A stretch of DNA of 36,394 nucleotides from the NCBI GenBank assembly GCA_022574815.1, contig JACZRH010000001.1, positions 12,778 through 49,171 of the forward strand. Reading direction: 5' to 3'. A program made the position numbers and the translations under genes. Below the pieces are notes generated by a model. The model ran no database searches. It was given only the letters and a program-made list of their open reading frames with translations, and had not been told where the DNA came from. The stretch is from Planctomycetota bacterium. GTDB lineage: Bacteria > Planctomycetota > Phycisphaerae > UBA1845 > Fen-1342. Positions 1 through 7,756 of this stretch are shown one piece after another. Position 1 is the first letter of the stretch; the number at the start of each line of letters is the position of its first letter.

Positions 1-371
1 CCGCCTGCGTTGGTGTTGGGACGCTTAATGTGCAGTTCCAACTGTCTCGCAGTTGTAAGTTCGTGCCAACAAGGGACGTTGCTGGGTGAAGACGTAAATA
101 TTAGATCGGTCGTCTTCGGATAATGCGGCGTCAGAAGCACCTCACTGCCGTGCGGCACTTCCTCCTTGCCGGCATTTATGATCCAGTGCGCCACAGCACC
201 CTCAGAAAGTTGCGGCTTGTGAAGATACTTTTCCAAGTGGCCCTGTCGCCCTGCCCCTGGATCACGTTTGCCGGTTGGGATGCCTGCCCTCCACATTCCC
301 GTTCCAATTCCGGCGCTTCCGCCCACAACAACTGCGATTGAAACCACCAGCGACAGTTCGCCAGCTTTCAT
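1..371 (-). CDS. Hypothetical N-terminally anchored or secreted protein, partial (3' end beyond left edge)
   Basis: An open minus-strand frame starts at the ATG at 371-369 and stays open to base 1, giving 123 codons with the C-terminus outside the window. A good ribosome binding site (AAAGGAG on the minus strand, 379-385) lies 7 nt upstream. The start codon overlaps the stop of the DUF5131 remnant as ATGA. The protein opens MKAGELSLVVSIAVVVGGSAG, a hydrophobic segment that could be a signal anchor, and continues as a soluble region (LEKYLHKPQLSEGAVAHWI). I recognise no family. Codons such as CTT, GCA, GGA and TCT are more frequent than in the rest of the window, so the segment looks less GC-biased than its surroundings. 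Coding status is inferred from the ribosome binding site, the open frame and the coupling. Confidence 0.6.
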   Translation of the reverse strand, partial: MKAGELSLVVSIAVVVGGSAGIGTGMWRAGIPTGKRDPGAGRQGHLEKYLHKPQLSEGAVAHWIINAGKEEVPHGSEVLLTPHYPKTTDLIFTSSPSNVPCWHELTTARQLELHIKRPNTNAG

Positions 372-778
372 AGCACGTCTCCTTTGTTCTCGACGTATGG
401 TCCGATGGCGGCCGCGCTACGGCGCGGCGTCGGATACGCCCGCACGATCTCGCCGTCGAGCTCGATGCCCATCTCGGTCCGCGGCGCGGCCGATTGCTTG
501 TAGAAAAACGCTGCTCCCGCTTCGTCGCAGCGCCGCCGCATGTCCCGCGCCCATTGTACGTCGTGCGGGCGGTATCCGCTGCCCGACTCGCCCCCGTAAA
601 TGATCCAGTCCAGCCCGTCGAGGTCGAGCTCGTCGAGCGGCCCCAGGGCCGGCTCGTAGCTCACGAACCGCACCAGGGCCGGGATGCGGCGCAGATCCCA
701 GGCCCGCATGATGTAATCATTGCTCTCGATCGACGTGCCGAGCCACACGTTCGGCCAGATGTTGGCGCCCCTTTGGAT
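368..778 (-). pseudogene. DUF5131 (phage Gp37/Gp68-like) protein, 5'-truncated remnant
   Basis: The minus-strand frame encodes the C-terminal half of a DUF5131 protein. Visible family features are WPNVWLGTSIES, then VRFVSYEPALGP, DWIIYGGESGSGYRP, and CDEAGAAFFYKQ. Homology begins abruptly around 778-749, a few bases after the stop of the next upstream gene at 787. No start codon or N-terminal half (where the Cys-rich part of the family lies) is present in frame. Full members are roughly twice this length, so about half the gene is missing. The nearest internal start is GTG at 748. DUF5131 proteins are common in phages and mobile elements; their function is unknown to me. The stop (370-368) overlaps the start of the next gene, so the fragment may still be translated or may only carry the coupling. 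Confidence 0.75.
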
Positions 779-786
779 GCACGTGC

Positions 787-1248
787 TTACTTCGCCGAGG
801 CGGCCATGATCAGTTGGTCGTCGCTACCGGGAATCTTGCCGAGGGCGGTCAGTTGGAACTTGCCCGCGTCGACGGTCAGGGTTGTCTTGAAGAGCTGCTT
901 GTCCTTGTTCTCCACCTTTCGCGTCGCGGCGACCTTCATCTTCACGCGCCCCTTCGTGCGTTTGATCGGCGTGATGCTCCCCGAATAGTCGCCGACCAGT
1001 TTGGCTGTGAACGGCTTGCCCGCTTCCACCTTGCCGGATGATTTTTTCTCCAGCTTGAAGCCGGTGAACTTGGTTCGCGCCTTCAGTTCCTTGGCAATGC
1101 TCTTGAGCTCGGGGGAAATCTCCGTGTTCTTGTTTGTCGCCCGGATGGCCCAGATCCGCACGTCGAACTTTTCAGCCTGTGCGAGAGCGGCTTGCGAAGC
1201 GAACGCACTCACCATGAGCACCGCGATATGAATGCGCGTCAGACCCAT
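787..1248 (-). CDS. Small secreted protein of unknown function
   Basis: The product is 153 residues starting at the ATG at 1248-1246. It has a clear signal peptide (MGLTRIHIAVLMVSAFASQA followed by ALAQA, cleavage after AQA). The mature part is Lys/Thr-rich and looks beta-stranded (FKLEKKSSGKVEAGKPFTAK, VKMKVAATRKVENKD). The open frame extends to 1407, but that extension would translate a palindromic repeat (1254-1308) and puts 53 non-signal residues before the signal peptide, so I prefer 1248. It lies downstream of the ECF sigma and anti-sigma genes on the same strand and may belong to that unit. I do not recognise a family. Confidence 0.7.
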   Translation of the reverse strand: MGLTRIHIAVLMVSAFASQAALAQAEKFDVRIWAIRATNKNTEISPELKSIAKELKARTKFTGFKLEKKSSGKVEAGKPFTAKLVGDYSGSITPIKRTKGRVKMKVAATRKVENKDKQLFKTTLTVDAGKFQLTALGKIPGSDDQLIMAASAK

Positions 1249-1409: not shown

Positions 1410-1910
1410 TCAGGCTCCTTCATCCTGCACGACCCAGATCATCGCGGCCCCGCCGCTGTCGTCCAGCGCGACGAACGTCGTCGCGTCGCCGAAAACCTCG
1501 ATCTCGTGTACTTCCACGTTGCTCGATAATTGCATGGTGTGGTTCGATCCCGGCAACCCCCCCACTCTCCAGAGACCCACCGCCAACAGCAGCGCGGCCG
1601 CTGCGGCTCCCACGGACCAGAAGCGCCGCACGAACCTGAGTTGCGTCCGAACCGGCCGCGAGCCCGTCGTCGCCGAGGCGCTTTCGATACCGTCCCAAAC
1701 CGCGCCCCACTCCGCGTCGGACGGACCCGCTGGCGGCGCAAATCGCGACGATTCCATCGGCGGTTTGGCGCCGGAAAGGCGCGCGGCGCAGGCTGCGCAG
1801 TCTTCCAGATGCGACTCGAGCGAAGAGACCTGCGCATTCGAAAGCCCGTCGAGCCGGCCGGACTCGACCGCCTGCAACGCATCTCGAATGGTCTCGCACG
1901 CGCGGTTCAT
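1410..1910 (-). CDS. Anti-sigma factor with zinc-finger-like motif and single membrane span
   Basis: The product is 166 residues. The N-terminal cytoplasmic part carries an HxxxCxxC motif (HLEDCAAC, about residues 34-41) with an upstream Cys5, as in zinc-binding anti-sigma domains (zf-HC2 type). A hydrophobic span follows at about residues 96-113 (FWSVGAAAAALLLAVGLW), and then a short outer domain ending MIWVVQDEGA. The start ATG overlaps the end of the ECF sigma gene by 4 bp (1907-1910), which implies translational coupling and a cognate pair. By family knowledge the cytoplasmic part would hold the sigma factor inactive until an envelope signal releases it. The signal is not visible from sequence. 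Confidence 0.85.
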   Translation of the reverse strand: MNRACETIRDALQAVESGRLDGLSNAQVSSLESHLEDCAACAARLSGAKPPMESSRFAPPAGPSDAEWGAVWDGIESASATTGSRPVRTQLRFVRRFWSVGAAAAALLLAVGLWRVGGLPGSNHTMQLSSNVEVHEIEVFGDATTFVALDDSGGAAMIWVVQDEGA

Positions 1911-2530
1911 TCCTTTTCCTTTTCCGCATCGGCCGGCGCGAGATCCTCGAGATCGGCCCGCAGCCCCCGCCGCGCATGATAGAGTCGGCTCATGACCGTT
2001 CCCACCGGCACGCCCAGCACTTCCGCGATCTGTCCGTAGGTCATGTCGCCGCTCGCGTACAGGGCCATGACGGCGCGCTGGTCGGGCGGGAGTTTCTCCA
2101 GAGAATCCTGAAGCCGGTCCGCCGTCTCGCGCCGCTCCAGAGCGTCGGACACGCCTTGGTTCGAGCGATTGGAACCCTCGATGGAAGCCTCCGCGGCGGG
2201 TTCGGCGGCCGCGTCGCTGTCGGCGTCGAAGGACGCCGCGATGCGGACTTTCCGGGCGCGCAGCAGGTCGAGCGCCCGGTTGGTGACGATTCGCAAGAGC
2301 CAGGTCTTGAAGCTCGCATCACGCTGAAAGCTCTCCAGCCGCTCGAACGCCTTGATGAATCCGTCCTGCACGACGTCGAGCGCGTCCTCGTGCCGCCCGG
2401 TCACGCGCAGTCCCACGCGGTAGGCGGCCTCGCGGTGGCGCTCGAACAACTCACGCCGCGCATCGCGATCTCCGGCCGCGGCTCGCGTGGCCAGGGAACG
2501 CTCCGGACTATCGACGTTCGAGAGTTTCAC
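1907..2530 (-). CDS. ECF-family RNA polymerase sigma factor
   Basis: The product is about 207 residues from a GTG start (2530-2528, VKLSNVDSPERSL). The frame is open to 2677, but the extra 49 residues show no sigma homology. Region 2 is visible at about residues 28-95 (LFERHREAAYRVGLRVTG, DALDVVQDGFIKAFERL, FKTWLLRIVTNRALDLLR). Region 4 is at about 140-195 (LEKLPPDQRAVMALYASG, MTYGQIAEVLGVPVGTVMSR). Between them is an acidic linker rich in Ala, Asp and Glu. The C-terminus overlaps the anti-sigma start by 4 bp. The gene is divergent from the low-complexity secreted protein gene at 2695, so the 165-bp spacer holds both promoters. A TTG slightly upstream is an alternative start. Confidence 0.93.
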   Translation of the reverse strand: MKLSNVDSPERSLATRAAAGDRDARRELFERHREAAYRVGLRVTGRHEDALDVVQDGFIKAFERLESFQRDASFKTWLLRIVTNRALDLLRARKVRIAASFDADSDAAAEPAAEASIEGSNRSNQGVSDALERRETADRLQDSLEKLPPDQRAVMALYASGDMTYGQIAEVLGVPVGTVMSRLYHARRGLRADLEDLAPADAEKEKE

Positions 2531-2694
2531 ACTATTCAACAGAATCTCGAAAAAAACTCCCGCCGCAAGCTCCCGGCCGAAATCGCCGGAATTTTGGCGC
2601 TCGGGATTGAATAACCGGCCGGGTCGCGTCGTCGATCCAGGTGAGACGAGTATGGAGACCCGGGCCGAGCCCGACAACGAAGAGGAGAACGACT

Positions 2695-3414
2695 ATGAAA
2701 CGCTTTCTTGCAACCCAGACCGGAATCGCCCTTTCGAGCGCTCCGGGCGTGCTGGCCGGCGAGGCCCGGGCCGTCGCCATCGCCACGAACGGCGGCAGCG
2801 CCTCGGCGACGGCGACGGCCGTCGGCAATGCCGATTCGACCGCCATCGCCGGAGCGACTCGAGGCGGCCGCGCCGTGGCGAACAGCAACGCGATCGGACG
2901 CCGCAACGGTTACGCCGAGAGCCGCTCGGTCGCCGTCGCCGACCATGGCTTGGCCGTCAGCAACGCCGACGCCGACGCTCGTGGGATCTTCGGTGGTGCC
3001 GCCCGGGCCGACAGCGAGAGCATCGCCGCCACCATCGGAGGCGTCGCCATCAGCAACAGCCGGGCCCGGGCGCGCGGGACGTTCTTCGGCGGGGCGTACA
3101 GCCGCTCGCGTTCGACCGCACTCAGTGATCACGGGCAGGCGGTCAGCGACAGTCTCGCGGACAGCCGCGGCCGGTTCGGCGGGCACGCTTCGAGCTTCAG
3201 CGACGCATTGGCCGACAGCGTCCGCGGCCGTTCCTCGAGCCGCGTCCGGGCGTTCAGCGATGCGCGCTTCCGGGCGACGGCGCGGTCCGACGGACGCGGC
3301 GTGAGCATCAGCGGCCCGTGGCGCGGCTCACGGGTGCGAGTGCACGCCGAGAGCCGCTCGGTCCACCATGGCTGGAGCCGCGCTCGATCGGCGGTGATTC
3401 GCATCCGCCGATGA
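2695..3414 (+). CDS. Secreted Ala/Ser/Gly/Arg-rich repeat protein, possible beta-solenoid
   Basis: The product is 239 residues from ATG 2695, preceded by a GAGGAG ribosome binding site near 2682. A signal peptide (MKRFLATQTGIALSSAPG, then VLAGEA) is followed by a low-complexity body. From about residue 50 there are four imperfect units of about 30 residues of the form G-x-AVSN-S/A-x-A-x-ARG-x-FGGA-x-S-x-S-x-AL-x-DH (for example GLAVSNADADARGIFGGA, GVAISNSRARARGTFFGGA, GQAVSDSLADSRGRFGGH). Small residues alternate with polar ones, as in beta-solenoid or YadA-head-like repeats, but no family is recognised. The tail is strongly basic and ends VIRIRR. The gene sits head to head with an ECF sigma factor and is followed by a similar gene at 3548; control by that sigma factor is inference. 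Confidence 0.75.
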   Translation: MKRFLATQTGIALSSAPGVLAGEARAVAIATNGGSASATATAVGNADSTAIAGATRGGRAVANSNAIGRRNGYAESRSVAVADHGLAVSNADADARGIFGGAARADSESIAATIGGVAISNSRARARGTFFGGAYSRSRSTALSDHGQAVSDSLADSRGRFGGHASSFSDALADSVRGRSSSRVRAFSDARFRATARSDGRGVSISGPWRGSRVRVHAESRSVHHGWSRARSAVIRIRR

Positions 3415-3547
3415 GCAGCTAGCGATTGGGGTAGGTGCAATCGTCGGAGTCGAAATATTCTTGGACAGTGCGAGCCGCTCTCGGGGCGTCGGGCTCACGG
3501 GCCCGGCGGCTCTGAGGCGGACTCATCAGAGGCAAAGGAGATTGTCA

Positions 3548-4183
3548 ATGAAACGCCTGCACGCAACTCTGACTGTTTTCGCCGGGCTCGTCCTGACGAG
3601 CGCGGCCCTCGGCGGCGAAGCGAATTCCTCGGCGACCGCCGGCAACGGCCGCGGGCGGAACGGCAACGCCGCGGCCAGCGCGGGCTACACCGGCGACATC
3701 GGCTTCGCCCGCAGCGACTCGAACAGCGGACCGATCAGCACGGCCCGCGGGGTCGCGGTCGGCTTCGATGAGCGGGGGCTTTCTCTGTCGGTCAGCAACG
3801 CCATCGCACCCCAGCACGGTCCGTCTATCGCCACGAACTTCAACCTGAGCATCGGAACCGACGGCAGCGTTTCGCACAGCACCGGGTTGGCGATGGCGCT
3901 CGGCAACGGAAACCGATCGGTGACCGCCGGCGGCAGCACGAACTCGCACCGCGGCGGCACGGCCCGCTCGTTCGCAGCGGGTCGATCCGATGGCAACGGC
4001 CGCGTGCTGACGGCGGGCCGGTCCGAAAGCCGCGCCGGCCGGCGCCTTGTGAAAGAGCGGCGGCGCGGCGTCAGGAAGGTCGTGCGCGTGAAGCTCCCAC
4101 GGCGCGCCCGCATTCTCCGGCTAAATCGTCAATCCGGGCCGCGCCAAGTGCGCGTCGGGCGGGTACATCGGCGACATCGATAG
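3548..4183 (+). CDS. Secreted Gly/Asn/Ser-rich protein with basic C-terminal tail
   Basis: The product is 211 residues from ATG 3548, with an excellent AAGGAG site at 3535-3540. It has a signal peptide (MKRLHATLTVFAGLVLTSAA, then LGGEA) and a low-complexity body rich in Gly, Asn, Ser, Ala and Arg (NSSATAGNGRGRNGNAAASA, VAMALGN-like stretches). The last ~45 residues are extremely basic (RRLVKERRRGVRKVVRVKLP and onward to GRVHRRHR). Its first three residues (MKR), the position of its signal peptide and its basic end match the upstream protein at 2695, so the two look like diverged paralogues. No family is recognised. The gene is followed by a paired-hairpin repeat at 4199, which may also end transcription. 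Confidence 0.72.
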   Translation: MKRLHATLTVFAGLVLTSAALGGEANSSATAGNGRGRNGNAAASAGYTGDIGFARSDSNSGPISTARGVAVGFDERGLSLSVSNAIAPQHGPSIATNFNLSIGTDGSVSHSTGLAMALGNGNRSVTAGGSTNSHRGGTARSFAAGRSDGNGRVLTAGRSESRAGRRLVKERRRGVRKVVRVKLPRRARILRLNRQSGPRQVRVGRVHRRHR

Positions 4184-4198
4184 TTGCCTACTATGCGC

Positions 4199-4258
4199 GG
4201 GGAGGGCGGGCGTCTCGCCCGCTTCCCCTCACGGGCGGGCGAGACGCCCGCGCTCCCC
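4199..4258. repeat. REP-like pair of facing hairpins, copy B
   Basis: A 23-nt inverted repeat with one mismatch (left arm 4199-4221, right arm 4236-4258, 14-nt spacer) reads GGGGAGGGCGGGCGTCTCGC and its complement. Each arm is itself a hairpin (CGGGCG, loop TCT or AGA, CGCCCG). This is the same architecture as 1254-1308: two hairpins in opposite orientation with a GGCGTC(C/T)CGCC-like core. It starts 16 bp after the stop of the 3548 gene and could terminate transcription or stabilise mRNA ends. Confidence 0.7.
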
Positions 4259-4355: not shown

Positions 4356-6248
4356 ATGGCAGACGCGATCGCAGGCTCGCAAGGTGGACAGGCCGTGGCC
4401 GCGACTCAAGCGGCGCCGGAGGCCAAGCCCGGGCAGACCGGGGCCGCCGAGTTTGTCGACGTCTGGTCGCGGACCGAAGCGAAGTACCGCATCCGGGCAC
4501 GGCTGCTGCTGGCGACCAACCTGCTGCTGTTCTGTGGGCTGTGCGTGTTCACCTATTGGCTGCACACGGCCAAACTGCACGATTTCTCGCTGGACAGCTA
4601 CTTTTCCCCGCTGCGCTTCTGGGACAGCGGGGCGCCGAACCTGAATGACTTCGTGCTGTTCCCGATCAGCGTGGCCCAGACGCCGGCGCATGCGATCGTG
4701 CTGGGGCTGCTAGTCGGTACGATCGTGGCGGTCCCGATCGTCGTCGCGATTCTCTATCGCTTCAAGAGTGCGATCCCGTTCGTGGCCGCCGTCGTGGTTT
4801 TCGCGCACATGCCGTGGATGGGCGTGACGCTGATCATGAGTTGCGTGCTCGCCGGCGTGTGGCCCTTCCGAATGTCGTTTCGATTCAGCTCCGCTTTGGT
4901 GGGCATGCTTCCGGTCCTGCTCTATCTGTTCCTGGCCACGCGCGGCTCGGCCGGGCAGGTCGGGTCCGCGTTGTCGCCGACCGAGAAAGCGCTGCTGGCG
5001 TCGCCTTGGGTGCTCGCGATCCTGGCGGCGTGCCTGATGATGGCGACCACGCTGGCGATTGCGCGCTGGGTGGACTATCGCCCCGGCGCGGTTGCGCCGG
5101 TCATCGCGGTGATGTTCGCGGTGCCGCTGGCCATCTTTCACGCTTTTGTCGGCGCCGACGAGGTGTCCTACCGAGTGCTCGAGTCGAATCACGGGCCGCA
5201 CTCGCAACGCTTTGTACCCGTCCAGGACGTCACGCGCGAAGTCCAGGAATTGCTCCGGCCGCGCGACGACCCGTTTGCGCTGCTCGCGCTGCTCGCCGGC
5301 AATCCGCGGCTGGCGGTGCAACGGGTCGAAAGCGAGTTCACGCGTTCGTTTCTGGCGGACCGGCGCGAAGCCGACGAGGCCGCCGGCCAGTTCATTGCGA
5401 CGCACCGCAACAGCCCGTACGTCCCCTGTGCTCTGTACATTCAGGGTCGTGCGCTCGACACGCGGCTCGACACGCGCAAGCTGATCGCCGCGGCCCGCCG
5501 CGAGTTCTATACCGATTTTCCGCACGTGCAGTCCGAAGCCACTTGGTCGGCCCTGCTCACGGGCTACCCCGATTCGCCGCTCGCGATCGCCGCGGGGCTG
5601 CGCCTGGCGCAGCTCCGGTTGCGGCGCAGCGACACCGCGGGCGCCCTGCAAGCGATCGAGACGATTCGGGCGTCCGAAGCGGCGCGGCGCGACTCGACCA
5701 CGCAACCGGCGCCGCGCGGCCTGCTGCGCACGCGGCGCCCCGAGGAGAGCCTCGACCTCGACCCCAAACCCTATCTCTTCGAAGCGCAGCGGCTGAGCGA
5801 GCTGATCGTCGCAAACCGGGACGACCCCAAGTACGGCGCGGCCCCGTTGCAGCAGCTGGCGTGCCTCGACCCGCACCGCTCGCGCTACCTCGAGCAACTG
5901 CTGCGGCTGACGAGCGAGTATCCGGAGAGCTTGTTGATCGACAACATCCTGGTGCGCTGGGCCGCGGCCGCGGATGACCATGAGGAGCGTGCCGATCGGC
6001 TGGCGGCGTGCATTCGCCGCTTTCCGAACGGGGACGCGACGGCCGAGGCCCTGTTTCGCCTGGCGGACCTGGAGATTCAGTCGCTGGCGGGCAGCGACGA
6101 AACGCGTCTGGCCCAGGGAATCAATCGCATGCGCGAGCTGGTGGAGCGCTTCGGGACAACCTGCTGGGGAGAGGCCGCCGCCGAGCGACTGCGGATGCTC
6201 GAGCCGCGCATGCCGGCAGCAGCGCCGGCAGGAGCGGGGCGGCCATGA
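4356..6248 (+). CDS. Polytopic membrane protein with C-terminal helical-repeat domain
   Basis: The product is 630 residues. After a polar N-terminus of about 45 residues there are six or seven hydrophobic segments: about 47-68 (LLLATNLLLFCGLCVFTYWL), 112-135, 140-170, 176-197, 212-235 and 243-265. From about 270 to the end the protein is soluble and Arg/Ala-rich, with helical pairs that look TPR-like (AAGLRLAQLRLRRSDTAGAL, ATAEALFRLADLEIQSLAG). I do not recognise a named family; tetratricopeptide membrane proteins of this kind are frequent in Planctomycetota. Its stop overlaps the ubiX start as ATGA, making it the first gene of a coupled operon with ubiX, ubiA and a GT-C glycosyltransferase. 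No strong ribosome binding site precedes ATG 4356, so the start is moderately certain. Confidence 0.75.
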   Translation: MADAIAGSQGGQAVAATQAAPEAKPGQTGAAEFVDVWSRTEAKYRIRARLLLATNLLLFCGLCVFTYWLHTAKLHDFSLDSYFSPLRFWDSGAPNLNDFVLFPISVAQTPAHAIVLGLLVGTIVAVPIVVAILYRFKSAIPFVAAVVVFAHMPWMGVTLIMSCVLAGVWPFRMSFRFSSALVGMLPVLLYLFLATRGSAGQVGSALSPTEKALLASPWVLAILAACLMMATTLAIARWVDYRPGAVAPVIAVMFAVPLAIFHAFVGADEVSYRVLESNHGPHSQRFVPVQDVTREVQELLRPRDDPFALLALLAGNPRLAVQRVESEFTRSFLADRREADEAAGQFIATHRNSPYVPCALYIQGRALDTRLDTRKLIAAARREFYTDFPHVQSEATWSALLTGYPDSPLAIAAGLRLAQLRLRRSDTAGALQAIETIRASEAARRDSTTQPAPRGLLRTRRPEESLDLDPKPYLFEAQRLSELIVANRDDPKYGAAPLQQLACLDPHRSRYLEQLLRLTSEYPESLLIDNILVRWAAAADDHEERADRLAACIRRFPNGDATAEALFRLADLEIQSLAGSDETRLAQGINRMRELVERFGTTCWGEAAAERLRMLEPRMPAAAPAGAGRP

Positions 6249-6868
6249 AACAGATCGTCATGGCCATCACCGGCGCCAGCGGGGCCCCCTATGCTCGCCG
6301 CCTGGCCGAGTGCATCGTCGAGTGCGACGCGCACCTGCACCTGATCATCTCGCCGTACGGTCGGCAATTGCTCAACGACGAGTTGGGCCTCCGCGACGTT
6401 TCCGTTGCCGGGCTGATCGGGCGGACGGCTTCCAACGCGACGCTCTACGGCTACCACGACGTGGGCGCGAAGATCGCCAGCGGATCGTTTCTGACGGACG
6501 GCATGGTGATCTGCCCGTGCAGCAGCAATTCTCTCGCCGCGGTCGCCAACGGGCTGGGCGACAATCTGATCGCGCGGGCGGCGACGGTCACGCTCAAGGA
6601 AGCCCGGCGCCTGATCATCGTCGCGCGTGAGATGCCGCTCAGTCGGATCGAGATTCACAACATGCTGCGGCTCAGCGAAGCCGGCGCGATTCTCTGCCCC
6701 GCGTCGCCGGGCTTTTATCTGTTGCCCAAATCGGTCGCGGACCTGGTTGATTTTGTCGTCGGCAAGGTGCTCGACCTGCTCGGCCTGCCGCACACGCTCC
6801 ATACGCGCTGGGAGCCGGACCGGCCGGCCGCGGCTTCGCCGGCCGTTCCACGGCGCGGCTCGGAGTAG
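6245..6868 (+). CDS. ubiX: UbiX-family flavin prenyltransferase
   Basis: The product is 207 residues with start ATG 6245 overlapping the previous stop. It has the family hallmarks: an N-terminal flavoprotein loop (MAITGASGAPYARRL), the CPCSSNSLAAVANGLGDNL segment, EARRLIIVAREMPLS, and CPASPGFY near the C-terminus. UbiX joins a dimethylallyl group to reduced FMN to make prenylated FMN, the cofactor of UbiD-type decarboxylases. Its neighbour is a UbiA-family prenyltransferase, so a role in quinone synthesis is likely. In Planctomycetota this would fit the futalosine route to menaquinone, although the UbiD partner is not in the window. The last ~20 residues (Pro/Ala/Arg-rich) look like a non-conserved tail. 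Confidence 0.92.
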   Translation: MKQIVMAITGASGAPYARRLAECIVECDAHLHLIISPYGRQLLNDELGLRDVSVAGLIGRTASNATLYGYHDVGAKIASGSFLTDGMVICPCSSNSLAAVANGLGDNLIARAATVTLKEARRLIIVAREMPLSRIEIHNMLRLSEAGAILCPASPGFYLLPKSVADLVDFVVGKVLDLLGLPHTLHTRWEPDRPAAASPAVPRRGSE

Positions 6869-6871
6869 TCC

Positions 6872-7756
6872 TTGTCCGCGCTCGTGAGCAACGTGCAGCG
6901 CTGGGGCGAGATGGTCAAGTTCGGGCATTCTCTCTTCGCACTGCCTTTCGCGCTGTTGGCGACGTTTCTCGCGGCCCGCCCAGCGCTGCCCGAACTGGGG
7001 CAGCTCGGGTTGATCTTGCTCTGCATGGTCGCGGCGCGCAGCGCGGCCATGACGTTCAACCGCATCGCCGACGCCGCCTTCGACGCGCGCAACCCGCGCA
7101 CCGCCGGCCGGGCCCTGCCGGCCGGTACGATCACACGCGCCGCCGCGTGGGGTTTTTTCGGAGGTTCGTGCGCGGTGTTTCTGCTGGGCTGCGGCGGGTT
7201 TCACTGGGTGTATGGGAACCCGTGGCCGTTTCGGCTGGCTCTGCCGGTGCTGGCGCTGCTGTGCTTCTACTCGTACACGAAGCGATTCACGCGCTGGTCG
7301 CACCTGGTGCTAGGGACCGGCATCTCGTCTTCGACCGTCGCGGCGTGGATCGCGATCAGTCCCGCGACGCTCGGCCCGCCGGCCTGGCTGTTGATGGCCG
7401 CGGTCCTGTTCTGGATCGCCGGTTTTGACATGATTTACGCCTGCCAGGACGTCGAGTTCGACCGCCGGGAAGGTCTCTACAGCGTTCCGGCGCGGCTGGG
7501 GGTTCCGGCGGCGCTTTGGCTGGCGCGCGGGTGTCACCTCGTGACCGTCTGCACGCTCGTGGTGGTCGGGAGCGTTGCGCGGCTCGGCACGTTGTATTAC
7601 GCGGGGGTCGTTTGCGTGGCCGTTCTGCTCGTGATCGAAAACGCCCTGGTCAGCCCGCGCAACCTGTCGCGCATCAACCTCGCGTTCTTTACGGTCAACG
7701 GCGTGGTTGGGCTCGTCTTGGGCGGGCTCGGCATCCTCGACGTAGTGCTGCAATGA
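6872..7756 (+). CDS. ubiA: UbiA-family prenyltransferase (4-hydroxybenzoate polyprenyltransferase-like)
   Basis: The product is 294 residues from TTG 6872, with GGAG at 6862-6865. ATG at residue 15 (MVKFGHSLFALPFALLA) is an alternative that still keeps the conserved start of the family. The two Asp-rich substrate motifs are present: NRIADAAFDARNPRTAGR (about 66-83) and DMIYACQDVEFDRREGLYSV (about 188-207). About eight hydrophobic helices span the length. It attaches a polyprenyl chain to an aromatic acid in the membrane. It resembles the ubiA_other/MqnP-like branch more than E. coli UbiA, but I cannot settle that by eye. It lies 3 nt after ubiX, and its stop overlaps the next start as ATGA. 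Confidence 0.9.
   Translation: MSALVSNVQRWGEMVKFGHSLFALPFALLATFLAARPALPELGQLGLILLCMVAARSAAMTFNRIADAAFDARNPRTAGRALPAGTITRAAAWGFFGGSCAVFLLGCGGFHWVYGNPWPFRLALPVLALLCFYSYTKRFTRWSHLVLGTGISSSTVAAWIAISPATLGPPAWLLMAAVLFWIAGFDMIYACQDVEFDRREGLYSVPARLGVPAALWLARGCHLVTVCTLVVVGSVARLGTLYYAGVVCVAVLLVIENALVSPRNLSRINLAFFTVNGVVGLVLGGLGILDVVLQ

Follow-up and report, generated by a model that had tools for sequence, protein, structure and literature searches.

The closest described counterparts of the system reported here are the extracytoplasmic function (ECF) sigma factors SigW and RpoE, paired with the anti-sigma factors RsiW and RseA, respectively. Early classifications took a -10 box with CGT and a -35 box with AAC as hallmarks of ECF promoters, and later definitions keep the two sigma domains only (PMC8103513, available part). 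In the accessible portion of PMC2375139 the SigW consensus is given as TGAAAC-N16,17-CGTA, and an Hx3Cx2C zinc motif is present in about half of class I anti-sigma factors (ASDI), according to the part of PMC7406223 at hand. Herein we analyze a 36,394-nucleotide stretch of a Planctomycetota metagenome bin (GCA_022574815.1, contig JACZRH010000001.1, positions 12,778 to 49,171), hereafter the window, in which an ECF sigma factor (sigma1) and a putative membrane anti-sigma factor are encoded beside three exported proteins that we refer to as SecA, SecB, and SecC. Planctomycetes have many ECF sigma factors, the targets of which are, to our knowledge, mostly unknown. The best explanation of the locus, and one that we consider quite probable as a whole, is that sigma1 runs a circuit through TGAATA-N16-CGTC promoters, and that the programme under its control was passed to it from a second ECF sigma factor, sigma2. 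This explanation is built on the observed genes, on how these are conserved, and on where two promoter types occur. A literature search, which covered neither subscription papers nor preprints, found no description of this regulon.

The original prediction placed a sigma/anti-sigma pair head to head with two genes for exported low-complexity proteins, and this layout is confirmed in the window (Table 1). Both regulators are present as described, but the anti-sigma gene falls outside the interval of 1907-4183 that had been assigned to the group, and SecC, the third gene of the sigma operon, had been overlooked. The composition was described correctly, as SecA and SecB both begin with MKR, have signal-peptide-like starts, and consist of Ala, Gly, Ser, Asn, and Arg for 64% and 60% of their residues. 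The basic tail ascribed to both is strong in SecB but milder in SecA (22 versus 13 Lys/Arg in the last 50 residues, with 1 and 2 Asp/Glu, respectively). The likely start of sigma1 is the GTG at 2530, and the open frame extends to a TTG at 2677. Sigma1 contains Sigma70_r2 (E 1.9e-18) and Sigma70_r4_2 (E 2.2e-15) domains, both above the Pfam cut-off, and matches the NCBIfam sigma70-ECF model TIGR02937 with 118.8 bits (cut-off 42.9). It carries the sigma2 and sigma4 domains only, as expected of the ECF class (group IV), and its best match among solved structures is SigW. The stop of sigma1 and the anti-sigma gene overlap by 4 bases and the two genes also adjoin in relatives, from which a cognate pairing is predicted. 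The anti-sigma assignment is based on this position, on one membrane segment (19 of 20 loci), and on the zinc motif, which was found by pattern at 5 of 20 loci, the window included; profile scores are below the cut-offs (zf-HC2, 17.8 bits, cut-off 22.2; NCBIfam NF052375 'anti-sigma factor', 37.1 bits, cut-off 100).

Judged by the gene content of relatives, the layout in the window is not due to chance. The comparison covered 61 genomes of the order, with the family of the window designated f1 and further families including f2, f3, f4, f5, f7, and f8. SecA and SecB each occur in 37 of the 61 genomes, with one match per genome, and together in 36; the unpaired cases are a SecA fragment at a contig edge (G021) and a single weak SecB match (G027). 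Of the 21 f1 genomes that contain both sigma1 and SecA, 16 have them head to head. The predicted co-occurrence of the block in relatives holds, although it does not comprise five genes in a set order, since the SecA-SecB pair is found outside the family without sigma1. The length of SecA, ∼239 residues, is kept with few gaps at 49-66% identity among relatives, which is unusual for a low-complexity protein. Across 298 sampled genomes of the class, SecA was found in 32, every one in this order, and the named carriers (21 loci) are all uncultured Planctomycetota, mostly labeled Phycisphaerae or Phycisphaerales. Sigma1 (E 1e-35 or better) is present in 24 of the 61 genomes, 23 of f1 and one of f3 (G028), including all 21 f1 genomes with SecA and none of the 16 SecA-bearing genomes of other families. 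The two genes are unlinked in five f1 genomes (G007, G010, G015, G019, and G023). SecC lies next to sigma1 and/or the anti-sigma gene in relatives, and 21 aligned proteins share 28-41% identity.

A bipartite motif, TGAATA-N16-CGTC, marks the sigma1 5' end at 22 of 24 loci, and its spacer is 16 bases long in every case. The two loci without it are those of G008 and G028, genomes in which SecA and SecB were undetected. Upstream of SecA in f1, 16 of 21 genomes contain an exact match ([TC]GAATA) as compared to 0.02 expected from dinucleotide shuffles, a count that is descriptive, as are those for SecB, because the motif was found in these very regions. The five inexact forms are TGAATT (G010), GAAATA (G016 and G026), an N15 spacer (G020), and AGAATA (G021). 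Where sigma1 and SecA lie apart, the motif is retained before SecA in all five genomes, with TGAATT and CGAATA as variants in one genome each. It is also found at 10 of 10 detached copies of SecB and at 3 of 10 adjacent copies, the latter three having a SecA-SecB gap of at least 220 bases. The start codon is 52-165 bases downstream of the motif for SecA and SecB, 66-72 bases separate the opposed -35 boxes in 11 of the 12 head-to-head genomes that were measured, and every exact motif has CGTC, and thus the CGT hallmark, as its -10 box. The spacers 2530-2694 and 3415-3547 had been proposed for comparison, to look for a shared ECF promoter. The former contains the motif but the latter, in the window genome, does not, so that the window SecB, one of the seven adjacent copies without a motif, would most simply be co-transcribed with SecA. 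Related promoters for the two secreted genes are nonetheless borne out, since one ECF-type promoter is common to sigma1, SecA, and SecB where the last is detached. Two side observations concern the divergent region. In G008, a divergent TGAATA-N16-CGTC (L119:1056-1081) still faces away from sigma1 into a stretch free of SecA, as if it had outlived its gene. At 10 of 24 sigma1 loci (L095, L099, L094, and others, the window not among them), a conserved GGAAA-N17-TATnnT between the divergent promoters reads toward sigma1 and could be a second sigma1 promoter.

At sigma1 itself, the promoter has an unusual position. An in-frame ATG or GTG occupies one fixed place (RTG at +8) within the 16-base spacer in 15 of 22 sigma1 promoters, including that of the window, as compared to 0 of 17 SecA promoters and 0 of 13 SecB promoters. 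From other ECF systems, transcription is expected to start a few bases past the -10 box, here past CGTC. A sigma1-dependent transcript would thus miss the sigma1 start codon, because this codon sits inside the spacer, and 11 of the 22 loci, by reading, have no in-frame ATG, GTG, or TTG in the next dozen codons. This could indicate that either translation starts in an unusual manner or that the sigma1-dependent transcript serves the anti-sigma factor and SecC and not sigma1. The motif at the 5' end of sigma1 may reflect positive autoregulation, yet it lies across the likely start codon.

The motif reaches beyond the locus. The window genome has six exact matches, of which two are in the window, two are inside open frames, and two precede genes for exported proteins. 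One of the last two is 97 bases upstream of a 95-aa Tyr/Glu/Asp-rich lipoprotein (L123:1142-1429), with similar proteins in six other f1 genomes, and the other precedes an exported CHRD-domain protein (L124:1601-2167; CHRD E 1.1e-24) with a PEP-CTERM-like end (18.9 bits, just below the cut-off). The looser pattern GAATA-N16-CGTC, at 24 places in the window genome, yielded no additional exported protein downstream. A test independent of the discovery set used 65 further motif places in f1, including the other four of the window genome and excluding those of sigma1, SecA, and SecB. By crude script rules for signal peptides and Shine-Dalgarno sequences, a Shine-Dalgarno start is found behind 29 of these, a product with a signal-like N-terminus behind 18, and a small Tyr-rich product behind 11, versus 3, 1, and 0 of the 17 motif places in family f2. 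Seven of the 11 small Tyr-rich exported proteins are acidic with a lipobox-like GCD, and six of the f1 places lie before sigma2. Comparative evidence supports the suggested sigma/anti-sigma circuit with the two exported proteins as outputs, and the regulon appears wider than these two.

Sigma2 is present in 52 of the 61 genomes, including 21 of the 23 f1 genomes with sigma1, and is 33% identical to sigma1. Its own upstream motif is of the CTAAC/CCAAC...TGTC type at 19 of 23 loci in f1 and 25 of 27 elsewhere, while the sigma1-type promoter precedes it at 13 of 23 f1 loci versus 0 of 27. A CTAAC-type-N16/17-TGTCT promoter precedes SecA in 16 of 16 genomes of f4, f5, f7, and f8 and in 0 of 21 genomes of f1, and the sigma1-type motif precedes it in none of those 16. 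A further SecA from another family (G221) also fits the sigma2 type, for a total of 17 of 18. In ten other-family genomes, sigma2-type places precede sigma2, acidic Tyr-rich lipoproteins, Tyr-rich exported proteins, and Ser/Arg-rich exported proteins. Of 30 such places inspected, 20 have a Shine-Dalgarno start, 19 a signal, and 9 a small Tyr-rich product, versus 5, 1, and 0 of 30 reversed-pattern control places. Outputs of the same kinds thus stand behind promoters of the sigma2 type in other families and of the sigma1 type in f1, the Tyr-rich proteins of the two groups being similar in kind. For this reason, control of a conserved exported-protein programme most likely changed from sigma2 to sigma1 in f1.

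In the mechanism that we propose, the membrane anti-sigma factor would hold sigma1, and sigma1, once released, would direct RNA polymerase to TGAATA-N16-CGTC promoters. It is predicted to act on its own operon (sigma1, the anti-sigma factor, and SecC), on SecA with SecB behind it or on SecB alone where that gene is detached, and on genes for small Tyr-rich exported proteins; roughly half of the f1 genomes have sigma2 as a further predicted target. In families without sigma1, the SecA-SecB pair would be driven by the promoter type of sigma2. We infer that an outside signal, possibly envelope stress as the original prediction had it, brings about the release, and that a structure at the surface or outside the cell is built from the products, which the original prediction took to be surface or matrix proteins. 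A more detailed version, which is possible but doubtful, holds that the programme (SecA, SecB, acidic Tyr-rich lipoproteins, and Tyr-rich exported proteins) was handed from sigma2 to sigma1 by promoter replacement at many genes, after which sigma2 itself came under sigma1. The promoter across the start codon would then be a brake in place of the usual positive loop, with active sigma1 raising the anti-sigma factor and SecC but not sigma1.

Several points weigh against the proposed circuit and transfer. Recognition of TGAATA-N16-CGTC by sigma1 itself is a prediction, the motif was first spotted by eye in the SecA and SecB upstream regions, and the -35 box, TGAATA, does not have the usual ECF AAC, a hallmark no longer defining according to the available part of PMC8103513. 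The predicted transcript start falls past the likely start codon of sigma1. The motif occurs ∼7 times per genome both inside and outside f1; motif places inside and outside the family differ solely in the genes behind them. Genome-wide counts were accordingly dropped as evidence, the number being no higher in f1 than outside and the CTAAC pattern no commoner than its reversed control. Most of the compared genomes are metagenome bins, and sigma2 was not found at E 1e-45 in the bin of the window (4.48 Mb, 84% complete), from which it may be missing. In one genome of another family (G236), CTAAC and TGTCT before SecA are ∼20 bases apart instead of 16 or 17. The direction of change, sigma2 first, is deduced by parsimony and not from a rooted tree, and the association of sigma1 with its promoter type is confounded with phylogeny, such that one or two events might underlie all of it.

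Two other accounts of the promoter data were considered. Sigma2 or a third sigma factor could read both promoter types in f1, making sigma1 merely another target beside SecA. The presence of sigma2 in nearly all f1 genomes with sigma1, and the retention of its own promoter type at 19 of 23 loci, would allow for this. However, the TGAATA type is absent before SecA (0/16) and sigma2 (0/27) in families that have sigma2 and not sigma1, the promoter of sigma2 stays CTAAC/CCAAC...TGTC in f1, and the TGAATA motif is located at the 5' end of sigma1 itself, all of which make this account improbable. Slightly more improbable still is that the motif is the binding site of another regulator and not a sigma promoter. 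Its overlap with the likely start codon (RTG at +8, 15/22) is odd for a promoter of that gene, and the conserved GGAAA-N17-TATnnT at 10 of 24 loci could point in the same direction, but a promoter is favored by the constant 16-base distance between the two boxes, by CGTC as the -10 box, by the start codons that follow 52-165 bases on at SecA and SecB, and by a form close to the SigW consensus given in the available part of PMC2375139.

A further suggestion, compatible with the sigma1 circuit, concerns its products. SecA and SecB could be functional-amyloid or curli-like fiber subunits, with the circuit acting as a matrix switch. Both are exported, low-complexity proteins with strand-turn repeats and appear co-regulated with Tyr-rich exported proteins. 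The SecA model, computed with 20 relatives (mean pLDDT 83.5, pTM 0.78), consists of ∼15 strands of ∼10 residues and suggests a regular all-beta protein. In VIA-align, it aligns to Pontibacter CsgA 8c50 (Z 13.7, rmsd 6.9, 175 residues) and E. coli CsgA (Z 8.3), although the SufB/SufD beta-helices fit better (Z 14.6, rmsd 3.6, 209 residues); a stacked beta solenoid of two sheets, as in curlin, is at most suggested by the model. Foldseek with the SecA model returned nothing under E 0.15, a PDB sequence search with SecA gave a best E of 0.29, and neither SecA nor its 20 relatives match Pfam curlin. The SecB model has ten strands, mostly with pLDDT > 90, followed by a disordered basic tail, and in its fold comparison no match exceeded Z 7.0, a result by which no family is excluded. 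Pfam yielded nothing convincing for SecA, SecB, or SecC; NCBIfam gave no match for SecA and SecC and a weak serine-rich match alone for SecB (18.3 bits, cut-off 650). When their profiles are compared, SecA and SecB align in part (probability 93.8, 96 columns including the signal peptide). No curli export genes are identified, though no search was aimed at them. On balance, we consider the amyloid suggestion unlikely, and a curli-like or other surface role for SecA and SecB is a guess.

Table 1. Features of the sigma1 locus, with positions in the window.
Feature	Position	Strand	Description
SecC	787..1248	-	153-aa exported protein, gene 3 of the sigma operon; no Pfam match
Anti-sigma factor (putative)	1410..1910	-	Single membrane segment and HLEDCAAC (Hx3Cx2C) motif
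ECF sigma factor, sigma1	1907..2530	-	Sigma70_r2 and r4_2 domains; relatives; nearest solved structure SigW
Predicted sigma1-type promoter TGAATA-N16-CGTC, sigma operon	2513..2538	-	Exact match; overlaps GTG start codon 2528-2530
Predicted sigma1-type promoter TGAATA-N16-CGTC, SecA(-SecB)	2608..2633	+	Exact match, conserved
SecA	2695..3414	+	Exported, 239 aa, Ala/Ser/Gly/Arg-rich; model with ∼15 short beta strands
SecB	3548..4183	+	Exported, 211 aa; modeled ten-strand beta core (∼residues 24-162), basic disordered tail
24-nt inverted repeat	4199..4258		Just 3' of SecB; 96% complementary arms, 12-nt loop; terminator-like or dispersed repeat

By eye, stretches similar to the inverted repeat, GGCACCGGCGTC...GCCGGTG, occur near 1254-1277 and in the spacer of a relative, and it may therefore be a dispersed repeat and not a terminator. 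A TPR/BamD-like gene (4356-6248) was considered as a member of the block and rejected, because it adjoins SecA in none of the relative loci searched by tblastn. Behind it, at ∼6240-7756 (+), are genes that we take by eye to encode a UbiX-type flavin prenyltransferase and a UbiA-type prenyltransferase, and the frame at 368-748 (-) may encode a protein that resembles the DUF5131/phage Gp37 type. Searches of the window with Rfam and for tRNAs gave 0 matches.

Here, ∼60 genomes allow the promoter, the regulator, and a conserved exported set to be read side by side, so that definite genes are available for testing. As conserved and confidently modeled exported families without a Pfam match, SecA and SecB are candidates for a cell-surface structure of Phycisphaerae that is as yet unknown. 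The handover, if true, would be a case in which a bacterial output programme outlasted the replacement of its sigma factor and of its core promoter boxes, and it would bear on the question of how regulatory networks evolve.

Like SigW/RsiW and RpoE/RseA, the system consists of a sigma factor with sigma2 and sigma4 domains only and an overlapping gene for a putative membrane anti-sigma factor, and its predicted promoter, like that of SigW, is bipartite, with 16 bases between the -35 box and a -10 box of the CGT type. It differs from SigW in the -35 box, TGAATA instead of TGAAAC, and from both pairs in having a third, exported gene in the sigma1 operon, in the predicted targeting of exported beta-rich proteins without a known family, and in a sigma1 promoter that overlaps the likely start codon of its own gene. 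As in curli (CsgA/CsgB) and Fap, small exported low-complexity proteins are predicted to form stacked short strands, and in curli the regulator and structural genes are likewise divergent. Unlike those systems, SecA and SecB have no match to the curlin repeat family and SufB/SufD as the better fold match, and control would be by an ECF sigma factor where curli relies on CsgD. The proposed transfer also resembles the regulon rewiring between related bacteria described in the available part of PMC2650801, in that outputs are common and control has changed across relatives; unlike in such cases, what seems to have been exchanged here is the sigma factor itself together with the core promoter boxes, and this across several classes of output.

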